DNA of 42,170 nucleotides from a virus: the IMG/VR virus record IMGVR_UViG_3300044568_002526, positions 1 to 42,170 of that record, one strand, 5' to 3'. A program made the position numbers and the translations under genes. Each line of letters starts with the position of its first letter. Position 1 is the stretch's first letter. The notes beneath the pieces were generated by a model that was not told where the DNA came from, made no database searches, and saw only the letters and a list, made by a program, of their open reading frames with translations. Positions 5,982 to 27,196 of the stretch are shown piece after piece.

Positions 5982-7232
5982 ATGGAAATTATTAAAATCC
6001 ACACAAGTCATAAAGAAAAAGTTGCAGATATTTTAAATAACACACTTATTGAAGGTGACTTCTGGGATTATACACTTTCATATGAATTTGATTATAAAAA
6101 TCATAACATGTATGATTTGGAATGTGAACATTATTTCAATCTACCAGAATTTGCGTGGTCGCCATATTTGATGGAACGGTGCATAGTAAATGTATTTGTT
6201 AAAAATCAAATGGAACGGAATATAGTGTATAAGACATTTGGGTTGAAAGAAAATAATGCAAGTCGTTATGTACATTATGATCTTAATGAAAATCCATTGC
6301 GGGATTATGAATATGCATACACACATAAAATTTATCCCAAGTATCCGATATATGTAATTACTAAAGGTCGGTGGGAAAAGACATTTACGATTGATACACT
6401 TGAAGAGATGGGAATTGATTTTTATATATGTGTAGAACCCGCGGAATACGATTCGTATGCTGCAAAAGTAGATGTAAAAAAAATTATAAAACTCCCCGAA
6501 AACTTTAGTGCATTAAAGAGGGGTAGTATTCCTGTTAGAAATTTCGTATGGGATCATGCGGTTAAGAGTGGTCACAAAAAACATTGGGTAGTCGATGATA
6601 ATATTCTTGGATTTTATCGGTGGAACAATAATTTAAAGAAGAAAGTTAAAGACGGTGTGTTTTTCAGAATCATGGAAGATTTCAGTGACCGATATGAAAA
6701 CTTGGGGTTGGTCGGATGCCAATATATGTCATTTGTTCCTGCAACAGAACCAGGCCGTAGTCAGTTTATAAAAAATACAAGAGTGTATAGCTGTATTTTA
6801 ATCAATTCTGAATTACTAGATACTCGGTTGGAAGAACGTTGGCGCGGAACGTACAACGAAGATACCGACTTGTCTTTGCGAGTGCTGTCCACTGGCGATT
6901 TGTGCACGGTCAACTTTAATACACTACTGAGTGGAAAACAAACCACCGGTACCATGCGTGGCGGGAATACGGATACCATTTATGAAGGTGGTAATACTTC
7001 TGGATATCAAAAAAAGTTTGATGAGTTAAAGAAGCATTGGGGTAAAATTGTTACATTGACGCATGAAATGCATAAAGATGGCAGACCGCATCATCACATT
7101 GCATACACTAAGTTATTTAAGCAAGACTTGGTATTGAAAGAGGGAATTTCTAGAGAACCAAAGGTCAATGAATATAATATGAAACTAGTAAAACGTACTA
7201 ATCCAGTGGATATTGAAACCGAAACAGAATAA
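5982..7232 (+). CDS. Glycosyltransferase, probable TET-associated (TAGT-type) DNA-base glycosyltransferase
   Basis: A GT-A-like enzyme of 416 residues. The core starts near residue 120 with YPIYVITKGRWEKTFTIDTL, continues with FYICVEPAEY, then has VVDDN as the probable metal-binding DxD-type motif and EDTDLSLRVLSTGDLC as the acceptor/base region. A C-terminal helix-rich tail follows. This pattern recalls the phage TET-associated glycosyltransferases, described as adding sugars to oxidised or hydroxymethylated pyrimidines. No TET/JBP or hydroxymethylase gene is in this window, so the substrate is inferred. It lies between clamp and clamp loader, with a DNA methyltransferase-like gene directly after it. 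The N-terminal ~115 residues are unassigned. Confidence 0.6.
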   Translation: MEIIKIHTSHKEKVADILNNTLIEGDFWDYTLSYEFDYKNHNMYDLECEHYFNLPEFAWSPYLMERCIVNVFVKNQMERNIVYKTFGLKENNASRYVHYDLNENPLRDYEYAYTHKIYPKYPIYVITKGRWEKTFTIDTLEEMGIDFYICVEPAEYDSYAAKVDVKKIIKLPENFSALKRGSIPVRNFVWDHAVKSGHKKHWVVDDNILGFYRWNNNLKKKVKDGVFFRIMEDFSDRYENLGLVGCQYMSFVPATEPGRSQFIKNTRVYSCILINSELLDTRLEERWRGTYNEDTDLSLRVLSTGDLCTVNFNTLLSGKQTTGTMRGGNTDTIYEGGNTSGYQKKFDELKKHWGKIVTLTHEMHKDGRPHHHIAYTKLFKQDLVLKEGISREPKVNEYNMKLVKRTNPVDIETETE

Positions 7233-12600: not shown

Positions 12601-12837
12601 ATGCCGCGGAAAAAGAAAGACACCACGCCCGAATTGGAATTGAAATTCACGGGCAAGATGAGTATATTAATTGAGCAAGAAAATCATGGGCCAATAGAGT
12701 GGCGTGTTAATGACATGGATACCGTCATGGCAGTCGTGCGTGTTATCTTGGATAAGACGGATAATAAAACATCGGTGGATGCATATGATGCCCGTACACA
12801 AAAAACCTTTACTAAAATTCTGGATAGTATTGAATGA
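12601..12837 (+). CDS. Hypothetical protein (78 aa)
   Basis: A small protein with a basic start (MPRKKKDTTPELELKFTGKM) and a helical C-terminal half (VMAVVRVILDKTD...FTKILDSIE). ATG 12601 lies one base after the preceding stop. An in-frame ATG at 12508 would read deep through the previous gene and is less likely. The 3' end overlaps the nuclease start (ATGA). No family is recognised. Confidence 0.6.
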   Translation: MPRKKKDTTPELELKFTGKMSILIEQENHGPIEWRVNDMDTVMAVVRVILDKTDNKTSVDAYDARTQKTFTKILDSIE

Positions 12838-15777: not shown

Positions 15778-15785
15778 ATGTTTCT

Positions 15786-15917
15786 AAAACACAAATGATA
15801 TTTATATATGTGAGGATTGTTAACGGCCTTCTTCGCACATATAACAAAATTACCCCTATAAGTAAGCCCAAGGTGCCGTTAACACTTTGGTGACTGAAAG
15901 TAGGGGTTTTGTGTTTT
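15786..15917 (+). ncRNA. Structured RNA with kissing loops, upstream of the endonuclease gene
   Basis: The only sizeable gap here folds into nested perfect helices. P1: AAAACACAAA (15786-15795) with TTTGTGTTTT (15908-15917), 10 bp. P2: TATATGTG (15805-15812) with CACATATA (15836-15843), 8 bp. P3: ACCCCTA (15852-15858) with TAGGGGT (15901-15907), 7 bp, extended inside by CCAAGG (15868-15873) with CTTTGG (15885-15890). The P2 loop holds GTTAACGGC (15819-15827) and the P3 hairpin loop holds its exact complement GCCGTTAAC (15875-15883), a 9-nt kissing or pseudoknot pairing. P1 ends directly against the GGAG ribosome site (15918-15921) of the next gene. I cannot match it to a named ribozyme or riboswitch. 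Translational control of the endonuclease or a mobile-element RNA are possibilities. Confidence 0.65.
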
Positions 15918-15927
15918 GGAGTAAGAT

Positions 15928-16635
15928 ATGCAACCATATACCTATTATTTGTATCACAAACCAACGGGCAAACATTACTATGGCGTAAGAACGGCAAAAG
16001 ATTGTCATCCGGATGAATTGTGGAAAACTTATTTTTCAACTTCAAAAATCGTAAAATCATTACGAGAACAACATGGTGATGATTCATTTGAGTATGAAGT
16101 TCGTAAATTATTTGAAACCTCAGAAGATGCGCTATCATGGGAAACAAAATTCTTAACACGAATTGATGCAGCGTCTAAAGATGAATGGTTAAATCGTCAT
16201 AATGGCGGTAAGAATTTTTGTACGACGGGCATTCCTTCGTGGATTGTTGGAAAAACGCACAGTGAACGGACACGTAAAAAGATATCGGAAAAAAGAAAAC
16301 CTTATGTTGGAGAAAAACATCCGATGTATGGAAAAACTCACTCGGAAGAATCTAAGCAAAAAATGGCAATCAATAGAGAAAAAAAGTTAGGTAAAGATAA
16401 TCATTTTTATGGTAAACAACACTCAGCGGAACTTAAAAAATATATTTCTGAACTCAATAAAGGCAGACCCTCTCCAAGAAAAAATGTTGTATTATCCGAT
16501 GAACAACGAAAAAAACAATCTGATAGTATGAAAAATAAACTGAATATTGTGTGTCCACACTGTAATAAAGAGGGAAAGCCCAGTGGTATGAAACGATATC
16601 ATTTTGATAATTGTAGATTAAAACCAACACCTTGA
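15928..16635 (+). CDS. GIY-YIG homing-endonuclease-like protein with NUMOD3 repeats
   Basis: A 235-residue protein. The N-terminus (YTYYLYHKPTGKHYYGVRTA) fits a GIY-YIG nuclease core (YLY...YYG), with WETKFLTRID as a later motif carrying the usual Glu. Residues ~108-180 hold NUMOD3-type repeats (GKTHSERTRKKIS, GEKHPMYGKTHSEESKQKM, GKQHSAELKKYIS), which are DNA-binding modules of homing enzymes. The C-terminus has CPHCNKEG...H...C, a probable zinc finger. It is a free-standing mobile gene type. The stop TGA lies inside the -35 of P4. GGAG precedes the ATG and abuts the structured RNA. Confidence 0.85.
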   Translation: MQPYTYYLYHKPTGKHYYGVRTAKDCHPDELWKTYFSTSKIVKSLREQHGDDSFEYEVRKLFETSEDALSWETKFLTRIDAASKDEWLNRHNGGKNFCTTGIPSWIVGKTHSERTRKKISEKRKPYVGEKHPMYGKTHSEESKQKMAINREKKLGKDNHFYGKQHSAELKKYISELNKGRPSPRKNVVLSDEQRKKQSDSMKNKLNIVCPHCNKEGKPSGMKRYHFDNCRLKPTP

Positions 16636-16660
16636 CAAACTGCTTTCTTTTAGTTATATT
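16632..16660 (+). promoter_or_regulatory. Promoter P4 (TTGACA-17-TATATT)
   Basis: The -35 is TTGACA (16632-16637), overlapping the endonuclease stop codon. The -10 is TATATT (16655-16660), with a 17-bp spacer and TTAACTTAA after it. It drives the SpoU-type methyltransferase. Confidence 0.85.
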
Positions 16661-16686: not shown

Positions 16687-17349
16687 TTGGAAAACCCAAT
16701 GGTTAATTATAAGAAAATTAATAAGGAAATTCTGAGCAATCATTATAACGTGCGGGATGAATATAAGAATAACACGCTACAAGAAAACGTAAACATATGT
16801 AAAGCAGACCGACTTCCTTTCTCGGTGGGAATGATTAACGTAACCGGAGAACTTAACGTGGGAATGGCTCTGCGTTCGGCGTCTTTGTTGGGAGCAGAAA
16901 ACTTTTATATCTTCGGACGCAAAAAGTTTGACGCTCGTTCCACGGTTGGTGCGGAAAACTATATCAATGTTGTTCAATATGTGTTTGATGACCCGATAAA
17001 TTCCGACGAAGATATCTATCAGAAGGTTGTAGATTTATATTTGGAGAAGCATGATATTGTGTTGTGTGAACATGGTGGAGCGCAATTGGGAACTTTTTCG
17101 TGGGCGAAACTCATTGAGGATAGTCATGGATTTATGGTTGACGGAACGTTAATCAAGGCAAAAGATTATAGTAAGTATACTCCATTGTTCTTGTTCGGTA
17201 GCGAATCTTTTGGAACACCCAAATGCCTTCTTGAAAATCATAGTTTTATAAAAGTTAGCATCCCCCAGCGTGGTGTACTTAGAAGTTTTAATGTGAGTGC
17301 CGCTATGAATCTAATCGTGTGGGATTACATTAAGGAGACGCATCTATGA
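16687..17349 (+). CDS. SpoU/TrmH-family RNA 2'-O-methyltransferase
   Basis: SPOUT methyltransferase of 220 residues that uses AdoMet in a C-terminal trefoil knot. The three family motifs are present: 1, ELNVGMALRSASLLGAENFY; 2, LFLFGSESFGTP; 3, VSIPQRGVLRSFNVSAAMNL with the Ser/Asn that close the knot. Members methylate ribose 2'-OH in tRNA or rRNA; the target here cannot be read. The likely start is TTG 16687, 6 nt after AAGGAG (16676-16681); ATG 16699 is too far from it. A TTG start directly behind a strong promoter suggests that translation is deliberately low. It could alter host tRNA/rRNA or protect phage RNA, as inference. Confidence 0.9.
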   Translation: MENPMVNYKKINKEILSNHYNVRDEYKNNTLQENVNICKADRLPFSVGMINVTGELNVGMALRSASLLGAENFYIFGRKKFDARSTVGAENYINVVQYVFDDPINSDEDIYQKVVDLYLEKHDIVLCEHGGAQLGTFSWAKLIEDSHGFMVDGTLIKAKDYSKYTPLFLFGSESFGTPKCLLENHSFIKVSIPQRGVLRSFNVSAAMNLIVWDYIKETHL

Positions 17350-25803: not shown

Positions 25804-26166
25804 ATGAAACTACCAAAAATTACAGAAAAGCCGTGGGGCAGTGAAACATTGTGGGCCCACACGAAACATTATGTAGGAAAGATTTTGAAGGTGAATGCAG
25901 GAGAATCATTGAGTATTCAGTATCACCACTTCAAAGATGAAACGATGTATGTGTTATCTGGTACGGGGCATATTAACTTTTATATTCTTGAAGATGCACA
26001 GCCAGTACTCGTTAATAAACAATTTGTGGTTCCAGGTGATTCCATTCACATTGCACCAACGCAAGTTCATAACGTGGAAGCAATTTCGGATATACAAATT
26101 TTAGAAGCATCAACTAACCACTTGGATGATTTGGTCCGAGTACAAGACAAATATCATAGAGACTAA
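25804..26166 (+). CDS. Cupin, mannose-6-phosphate isomerase type II-like
   Basis: A 120-residue single cupin domain. The opening KPWGSETLWAHTKHYVGKIL and following SIQYHHFKDETMYVLSGTGH resemble the C-terminal cupin of bifunctional ManC/AlgA enzymes, which interconvert fructose-6-P and mannose-6-P. Metal ligands would be the HH...E set plus a later His in PTQVHNVE. If active, it would supply mannose-6-P for the GDP-mannose used by the dehydratase at 29116. No GDP-mannose pyrophosphorylase domain is attached. It overlaps no neighbour and precedes the purine gene by 1 nt. Confidence 0.75.
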   Translation: MKLPKITEKPWGSETLWAHTKHYVGKILKVNAGESLSIQYHHFKDETMYVLSGTGHINFYILEDAQPVLVNKQFVVPGDSIHIAPTQVHNVEAISDIQILEASTNHLDDLVRVQDKYHRD

Positions 26167-26167
26167 C

Positions 26168-27196
26168 ATGGGAATTCAAAGCGTAGATGTTATCGTAGAC
26201 TGCCAACATGGCGATACCGGTAAAGGGAAAGTGGCCCATCACCTTGCCAAATCCGGTTTTTATGATATTGTACTGCGATATAATGGCGGTAGTAATGCGG
26301 GACATACCGTATATCATAACGGCGAAGTAATTGTCACACATCAGGTTCCTATGGGTGTTCTCCACGGCATCACCAGTATCATTGGTCTGGGATGTGTGGT
26401 GCACATCGGTAAATTGATTGAGGAAATTCGTGCGTTAAATACTGTCGGAATTGATACGAAGAACTTAATTAAGATTGATAAACGAGCGCACGTGGTCACC
26501 GATCAACACATACACGATGACAAAACGGACAGTATCATCGGTACGACGGGACAAGGCATCGGTCCCGCCTACCGTGATAAGTATGGTCGCACTGGTATTC
26601 CTATCGGTAAGATGGATGTGTCTCAGTATCAGAATTTGTTTGAAGTAATTGATATCTATGATTATTTATTTGTCCACGATGACAAGTATAATATTTTATG
26701 TGAAGGGGCACAGGGATTTCATTTAGATATTGATTGGGGAGAATATCCGTATGTTACTTCGTCGCATTGTACAGTGGGATCAGTGTGCTTAAACGGTATC
26801 CCTCCGCACAAGATCCGCAAAGTATATGGGGTCATGAAGGCATATGAAACCTATGTGGGAAACAATAAGAACTTTACAAACCAAGACGACGATGTATTAA
26901 AGACCATTCAATTGGTTGGGCAGGAAGTTGGAGCAACTACTGGTCGGCCTCGCCAAGTCAATTGGGCAAACTTGGATAATGTTATTAAGGCAATGCATAT
27001 TAATGGCGTCACGGATTTAATCATTAATAAGGTAGATATTCTACGGCAAGTAAACAAGTTTGCCGTTATTGATGATGGCATGATTAAAACCTTTATGAAC
27101 TATTATGATTTTAATCGGTATGTAAATGCAAGAATGTATGATTCAAATAATCGTGGATTAAAAATTACATGGTCACAAACCCCAGATGGCATTTAA
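26168..27196 (+). CDS. purA: Adenylosuccinate synthetase, short archaeal/phage type (PurA/PurZ-like)
   Basis: A GTP-dependent ligase of 342 residues joining aspartate to IMP (PurA) or dGMP (PurZ). Motifs: HGDTGKGK (Gly15 to Lys21, with Asp16 at the PurA catalytic Asp and Thr17 where E. coli has Glu), NGGSNAGHT, GTTGQGIGPAYRDK, EGAQGFHLDIDWGEYPYVTS and the aspartate loop GATTGRPR. The length is near archaeal and phage enzymes, far below the ~430 of bacterial PurA. ATG 26168 fits the family N-terminus; an upstream in-frame ATG at 26126 would overlap the cupin. Retention of Asp16 favours IMP as substrate, but assignment to PurA or PurZ is open. Confidence 0.9.
   Translation: MGIQSVDVIVDCQHGDTGKGKVAHHLAKSGFYDIVLRYNGGSNAGHTVYHNGEVIVTHQVPMGVLHGITSIIGLGCVVHIGKLIEEIRALNTVGIDTKNLIKIDKRAHVVTDQHIHDDKTDSIIGTTGQGIGPAYRDKYGRTGIPIGKMDVSQYQNLFEVIDIYDYLFVHDDKYNILCEGAQGFHLDIDWGEYPYVTSSHCTVGSVCLNGIPPHKIRKVYGVMKAYETYVGNNKNFTNQDDDVLKTIQLVGQEVGATTGRPRQVNWANLDNVIKAMHINGVTDLIINKVDILRQVNKFAVIDDGMIKTFMNYYDFNRYVNARMYDSNNRGLKITWSQTPDGI

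Follow-up and report, generated by a model that had tools for sequence, protein, structure and literature searches.

A kissing-loop leader RNA upstream of mobile GIY-YIG endonuclease genes in uncultured phages, identified by comparison of its copies

The locus and its mobile cassette

The DNA analyzed in this study (the window) was a 42,170-base record of an uncultured phage. It contained T4-type replisome genes encoding DNA polymerase, clamp, clamp loader and ligase. Its nearest cultured relative found was Microcystis phage Mel-JY01, to which its DNA polymerase and UvsX-like recombinase were 45 and 53% identical, respectively. Matches to a PurZ-like 2-aminooxy adenylosuccinate synthetase and a TET-associated glycosyltransferase (positions 26126–27196 and 5982–7232) were also found in the window, and are signs that the phage DNA may be modified.

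A cassette with the approximate limits 15777 and 16672 consisted of a leader RNA, a GIY-YIG gene and a 3' promoter, all on the plus strand. In a relative, L093, the sequence corresponding to 15776 was joined directly to that at about 16672 without a cassette, and the identities of the flanks were 91 and 77–78%. The GIY-YIG gene (15928–16635) encoded a polypeptide of 235 amino acid residues that matched Pfam NUMOD3 (3e-19) and the homing endonucleases of PHROG (6.5e-31). Downstream of it on the same strand was a phage gene for a SpoU-type RNA methyltransferase (16687–17349; Pfam SpoU_methylase, 4e-12). Empty sites were identified for four insertions: that of the window in L093, those of L143 and L149 in the window, and that of L144 in L095 and L091. 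The protein match and the empty sites of the relatives both fit a freestanding GIY-YIG homing endonuclease cassette, for which cleavage of the empty site and homing in crosses would be expected. The target of the L143 cassette was the start of an exonuclease gene, at position 12834 of the window. In L143 (3560–3700) and L144 (3560–3720), the exonuclease gene after insertion appeared to start within the 3' end of the endonuclease open reading frame, in another frame, and the resulting N-terminal extensions of the two exonucleases were alike.

Three of the insertions had a sharp left edge, at which the inserted DNA began about 15–31 nt before the promoter motif that opens the leader (see below). 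Thus, the RNA travels with the endonuclease gene. An earlier sequence-only reading of this locus had suggested that the RNA could mark a mobile unit, which is correct in one sense, as the empty sites show that the inserted DNA has the RNA at its left end. The same reading tied the RNA to the GIY-YIG gene, and all nine copies identified in this study were directly upstream of a GIY-YIG start codon. Comparison among relatives thus bears out both the mobility of the cassette and the GIY-YIG link. The GIY-YIG proteins associated with these copies included two unlike subfamilies. The endonuclease of the window was of a subfamily unlike those of the other cassettes compared, whereas its leader was close to theirs; leader and enzyme have thus been recombined.

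The nine distinct RNA sequences, seven long and two short, were all from related uncultured phages. The copy of the window itself (W), at about 15799–15927, was found unchanged in three further contigs. Comparison of neighborhoods identified L088 and L089, diverged copies elsewhere in related phage genomes that were 85–86% identical and located before different GIY-YIG genes. A covariance model built from W, L088 and L089 (R1) found L137/L143 and L138/L145, of which L138/L145 is a second copy within the window's own species (contig G003). A search with the neighboring GIY-YIG proteins added L164, L151 and L161. L149, first seen as L141, is the second copy of contig G017. When a second model (R2) was run over 50 whole records, every copy that it found was beside a GIY-YIG gene. 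Weak antisense matches that also arose in the model searches are attributable to the near-palindromic nature of the 5' helix (P2). The search of 50,697 phage records by DNA similarity to the RNA region returned only chance matches of 38 nt, and the RNA model found no copy in Mel-JY01 or five other named phage genomes. Three scans of IMG/VR with DNA patterns recovered as true matches only the copies already known, the rest being coding sequence or chance, and both matches of one pattern scan of the GTDB genomes were chance. Finally, the covariance models of Rfam 15 gave no match at the gathering score in the window or in the leaders of the other copies, and permissive scans of both produced only sub-threshold chance matches, none of them credible, in agreement with the earlier statement that no known class is recognizable.

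Fold and covariation of the leader RNA

The helices and the loop–loop complement that the sequence-only reading had described were all present in the sequence at the positions given, and their core was confirmed by the homologs. The RNA region of the window had a folding energy of -51 kcal/mol, compared with a mean of -32.4 kcal/mol for shuffled sequences (z = -4.8; none of 200 shuffles folded as well). Its 5' hairpin, P2a (15812–15834), pairs GAGGA with UCUUC and presents in its loop the kissing strand K1 (UUAACGG, 15820–15826), which was 100% paired in the seven long copies. Helix P3 (15853–15906) is formed by CCCCUA (15853–15858) and UAGGGG (15901–15906), with a weaker lower part (15845–15849/15907–15911). 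Above P3, AGUA (15861–15864) faces GAA (15896–15898). This internal loop was conserved in all nine copies and, judged from its sequence, is possibly a bulged-G (loop E) motif. The hairpin P4 (15868–15890) has a stem of 8 bp (15868–15875/15883–15890) and a 7-nt loop that is K2 (CCGUUAA, 15876–15882). Directly after P3 is a terminator-like, U-rich tract (15907–15917), which also serves as the 3' strand of the closing helix P1, followed by the Shine-Dalgarno sequence GGAG (15918–15921).

Comparison with the homologs revised several dimensions of the structure proposed earlier. Of the 9-nt kiss, 7 nt (15820–15826/15876–15882) were conserved, but the outer positions 15875 and 15883 belong to the stem of P4. 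With these included, the helix first described as 6 bp is real but has a true length of 8 bp, all of which covaried. The 7-bp helix was kept in all copies as 15853–15858/15901–15906. It was nearly invariant, however, and P3 therefore provides little covariation evidence. The 8-bp helix can be paired in the sequence, but its register (15805–15812/15836–15843) was not conserved; the homologs instead back the pairing of 15802–15816 with 15830–15844, to which P2a extends in read-through RNA. This helix has one mismatch and one wobble in the window, and what all long copies share of it begins at about 15812. The 10-bp closing helix (15786–15795/15908–15917) is real in the window, where it grows to 14 bp as UUCU (15782–15785) pairs with GGAG itself, but it recurred in only one other copy. 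The 5' strand of P1, UUCUAAAACACAAA (15782–15795), pairs with 15908–15921 in the minimum free energy fold of read-through RNA only. The equivalent pairing was found in L143, both in the sequence and in the read-through fold, and the other copies were without P1. A three-way junction is thus not the conserved form: what the homologs share is two hairpins, each presenting a loop. Because the 5' strand of P1 lies upstream of the predicted transcription start, the closed junction would exist only in transcripts coming from upstream.

The loop–loop pairing was kept in all nine copies with differing sequences. The K1/K2 strands were UUAACGG/CCGUUAA in W, UUAGCGG/CCGCUAA in L088, UUCACGG/CCGUGAA in L144, UUAGAGG/CCUCUAA in L143, UUCGUGG/CCACGAA in L145 and AUUGCGG/CCGCAAU in L164. 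In the two short copies, the kiss ranged from 9 to 12 nt and had no sequence resemblance to those of the other copies. Among the seven long copies, all 49 cells of the 7-bp kiss were paired and 10 were changed on both sides, whereas shuffles gave 3.3 and slid strands no more than 1; four of the seven pairs had such changes. In an alignment not fitted to any model, the covariation score of the kiss was 0.599, as against 0.17 for shuffled and at most 0.163 for slid controls. The kissing pairs were in neither R1 nor R2, the models used to find the copies. For the whole fold, both-side changes were found at 25 of 41 pairs, including 8 of 8 in P4, in an alignment fitted to R1, which leans toward the helices and not toward the kiss. 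From the unfitted alignment, RNAalifold returned P2a, P3 and P4 unaided, with the consensus 5' hairpin beginning at 15812. Given that the sample was a small one of seven sequences, whose relatedness inflates the shuffle-based numbers, the slid controls and the independently assessed kiss carry the most weight.

In a table of duplex energies, the most stable partner of K1 was its own K2 in eight of the nine copies. The exception was L144, whose K1 scored -9.4 with K2 of L151, which has the same 7-nt core, and -8.8 with its own; K1 of L088 also paired well with K2 of W. Holding K1 and K2 in a form ready for the kiss cost 1.3–6.2 kcal/mol, which is less than the duplex gain of 6.5–14.7 kcal/mol (loop penalty excluded), and the kiss is therefore energetically plausible. 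TTAACGG, the DNA equivalent of K1, also occurred at the empty site of L093 (near 3985). As nothing comparable was found at the three other empty sites, this occurrence was regarded as a coincidence and K1 was rejected as a target-recognizing sequence.

The sequence-only reading had named homologs lacking compensatory changes as what would speak against the structure; when the homologs were compared, compensatory changes were present. Since the fold was kept in nine versions while the sequence changed, these RNAs form a real family that is not in Rfam. Comparison of the copies thus supports both the fold and the kiss, and the covariation identifies a new leader RNA family on mobile GIY-YIG cassettes, found only before mobile endonuclease genes. 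The loops change with their pairing kept, even between two copies of the same genome, which provides a natural mutant series for a leader kissing loop.

Promoters and the proposed role of the leader

The first element shared by all nine copies is TATTTATA (15799–15806, plus strand), a putative late promoter, and every copy opened with TAYTTATA. In the relative G020, TATTTATA was the commonest noncoding 8-mer. The motif TA(T/C)TTATA was there confined to the sense strand, mostly at a distance of 22–46 nt upstream of start codons, and preceded the genes for tail tube, head-tail adaptor, tail-fibre assembly, ribonucleotide reductase and recombinase. The same motif was found before the tail tube gene of Mel-JY01. 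From this placement, we infer that TAYTTATA is the late promoter of this phage group. In sense orientation, TAYTTATA is the reverse complement of the T4/cyanophage motif TATAAATA, and the direction of the promoter therefore rests on placement. The alternative that TATTTATA marks a late promoter pointing outward from the opposite strand was rejected, given that TATTTATA occurred 11 times and TATAAATA 0 times on the intergenic sense strand of G020. T4 spacing predicts that late transcription starts at 15812 (plus strand), exactly where the 5' hairpin begins. In all copies, the predicted first nucleotide starts either the 5' hairpin (long copies) or K1 itself (short copies). The leader from this predicted start to AUG was 116/117 nt in the seven long copies and 93/94 nt in the two short ones.

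These features suggest that the endonuclease gene has a late mRNA of its own with the RNA as 5' leader; the RNA is also the left end of the mobile GIY-YIG cassette. Transcription of the leader would start from the late promoter of the cassette. The 5'-terminal hairpin P2a and the longer hairpin P3/P4, with its loop-E-like internal loop, would then pair their loops by 7 bp, and the compact fold would end about 10 nt before the ribosome site. It would control endonuclease output in cis, such that production of the enzyme is late and limited. In W and three other copies, additional pairing of the ribosome site or the start codon with sequence from before the late start is possible, so that early read-through RNA would be locked and late RNA would be unable to form the lock, as in the logic of T4 I-TevI. 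Taken as a whole, this explanation is, in our judgment, somewhat favored. The leader is likely a cis control of endonuclease expression, and the gating of that expression proposed by the sequence-only reading is plausible; we infer both the effect of the leader on expression and its direction.

In four of the nine copies, sequence from before the late start was found to form a helix with the ribosome site or AUG. In W and L143, it is the 14-bp helix over GGAG, whereas in L088 and L144 a different upstream segment pairs with the start-codon region. No clear lock was found in the remaining five. Moreover, the computed mean accessibility of the initiation region in read-through and late RNA, respectively, was for example 0.41 and 0.39–0.40 for W, 0.57 and 0.31 for L164, and 0.40 and 0.56 for L088, without a consistent rise. 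Thus, the lock is an optional addition, and another role must fall to the kissing core. Precedents for early-locked, late-open endonuclease mRNAs are known (PMC2988022, PMC3014915). In T4 I-TevI and segB and in Aeh1 mobE, a helix over the ribosome site keeps early RNA untranslated, and late RNA cannot form it (PMC2988022).

The strongest rival to leader control is termination or insulation, to which the U-tract after P3 and an early-type promoter downstream both point. This promoter, TTGACA-N17-TATATT (16632–16660, plus strand), overlaps the stop codon of the endonuclease gene and probably drives the downstream gene. TTGACA-N17-TATA(T/C)T was found near the 3' end of six of the nine cassettes, overlapping the stop codon in three, and was absent from the empty site of L093. 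On the gene strand and the other strand, it occurred 7 and 0 times in the window, 5 and 0 times in G020, and 10 and 0 times in G003 (which overlaps the window), respectively, and by this distribution it behaves as an early promoter of the group. Strong early-type promoters with the related sequence TTGAC(A/T)-N17-TATATT were at 2269, 12184, 13769, 16632, 20185, 22475 and 32110 of the window, on the gene strand only. P3/P4 and the U-tract could be an intrinsic terminator. Early transcripts arriving from upstream would end there, at the edge of the cassette, the K1:K2 pairing would tune termination, and the 3' early promoter would restore transcription of the host gene. A GC-rich stem followed by a U-rich tract in eight of the nine copies and the classic A-tract/stem/U-tract layout of the short copy L161 are consistent with such a role. 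However, the late promoter is upstream of the same hairpin, so that late transcription must pass it too, the stem has a large internal loop, a standard terminator scan gave no call, and downstream promoters are embedded in T4 endonuclease genes without such a structure (PMC2988022). This reading is thus unlikely, even as the best of the rivals. We hold it more doubtful still that the RNA is a new cis switch in which the nascent late 5' end docks on the terminator-like hairpin via a copy-specific loop code of 7–12 nt and so decides endonuclease transcription and translation, the code differing between cassettes of the same genome and thereby avoiding cross-talk.

The fold could also be a protein operator: the endonuclease, or a phage protein such as a gp32-like SSB, would bind it and repress translation. 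It is compact and has invariant positions outside the helices (AGUA/GAA), and the pseudoknot of the T4 gene 32 leader nucleates a repressor (PMC3014915). Nevertheless, this RNA is found before genes of two unlike GIY-YIG subfamilies, and almost every copy has loop sequences of its own, a pattern ill-suited to one sequence-specific partner; such an operator is improbable, and a shape-specific protein binder is a possible partner of the fold. Slightly less credence is given to a fold whose main role would be to protect the late mRNA's 5' end against decay, without any regulatory switch: the 5' hairpin, or K1 in the short copies, does begin at the predicted first nucleotide, but a simple hairpin would be enough for protection, which leaves unexplained why there is a kiss and an internal loop and why the leader length is constant. 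A known riboswitch, self-cleaving ribozyme or degenerate intron, to which the three-way topology with docked loops had led the sequence-only reading, is very improbable, as there was no sign of self-cleavage or riboswitch membership, no copy matched Rfam at the gathering threshold or credibly below it, GIY-YIG proteins were the sole gene type associated with the RNA copies, and the L143 cassette supplies its target gene with a new start instead of leaving a join that could be spliced.

Comparison with other leaders

Similar to the leaders with hairpins sequestering the ribosome site in T4 I-TevI, I-TevII, I-TevIII and segB and in Aeh1 mobE, the proposed leader would be a structure on the mRNA of a phage homing endonuclease. 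As in the I-TevI-type leaders, late RNA from the cassette's own promoter would, in four copies, begin downstream of the 5' strand of the inhibitory helix. Unlike those single hairpins, however, the core here is two kissing hairpins downstream of the late start, and the lock is optional. The leader hairpin of Aeromonas phage 25 seg43(25) is also a stable structure that abuts, but does not cover, the ribosome site of a GIY-YIG gene. It is a simple hairpin, and the review (PMC2988022) mentions no kissing interaction for it. Like the gene 32 leader pseudoknot of T4, T2 and RB69, the RNA is a 5' tertiary fold upstream of the ribosome site on a T4-type phage mRNA, although the former is a pseudoknot on a replication gene and is bound by gp32, whereas the latter has kissing loops on a mobile endonuclease gene. 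The T4 paradigm of RNA-controlled homing endonucleases would thereby be extended from simple hairpins to a tertiary fold. In complexes of the ColE1 RNAI/RNAII type, two 7-nt loops can pair along their whole length, as here; unlike theirs, the kiss of this leader is intramolecular and in cis.

Other GIY-YIG genes were preceded by different elements. In L026 (3850–3930), a long perfect hairpin with repeated GTCTGACGA was upstream of another GIY-YIG gene; it was considered as a hammerhead and rejected, as no credible Rfam match was found. A second conserved leader motif, unrelated to the first and with no match in Rfam or in named phages, was upstream of the GIY-YIG start in L005 (3935–4000), L008, L010, L012, L014, L016 and L019. 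It comprised a TAAATA-type promoter, a hairpin with apparent covariation, CTCTAAYGC and a small hairpin whose loop contains GGAG.
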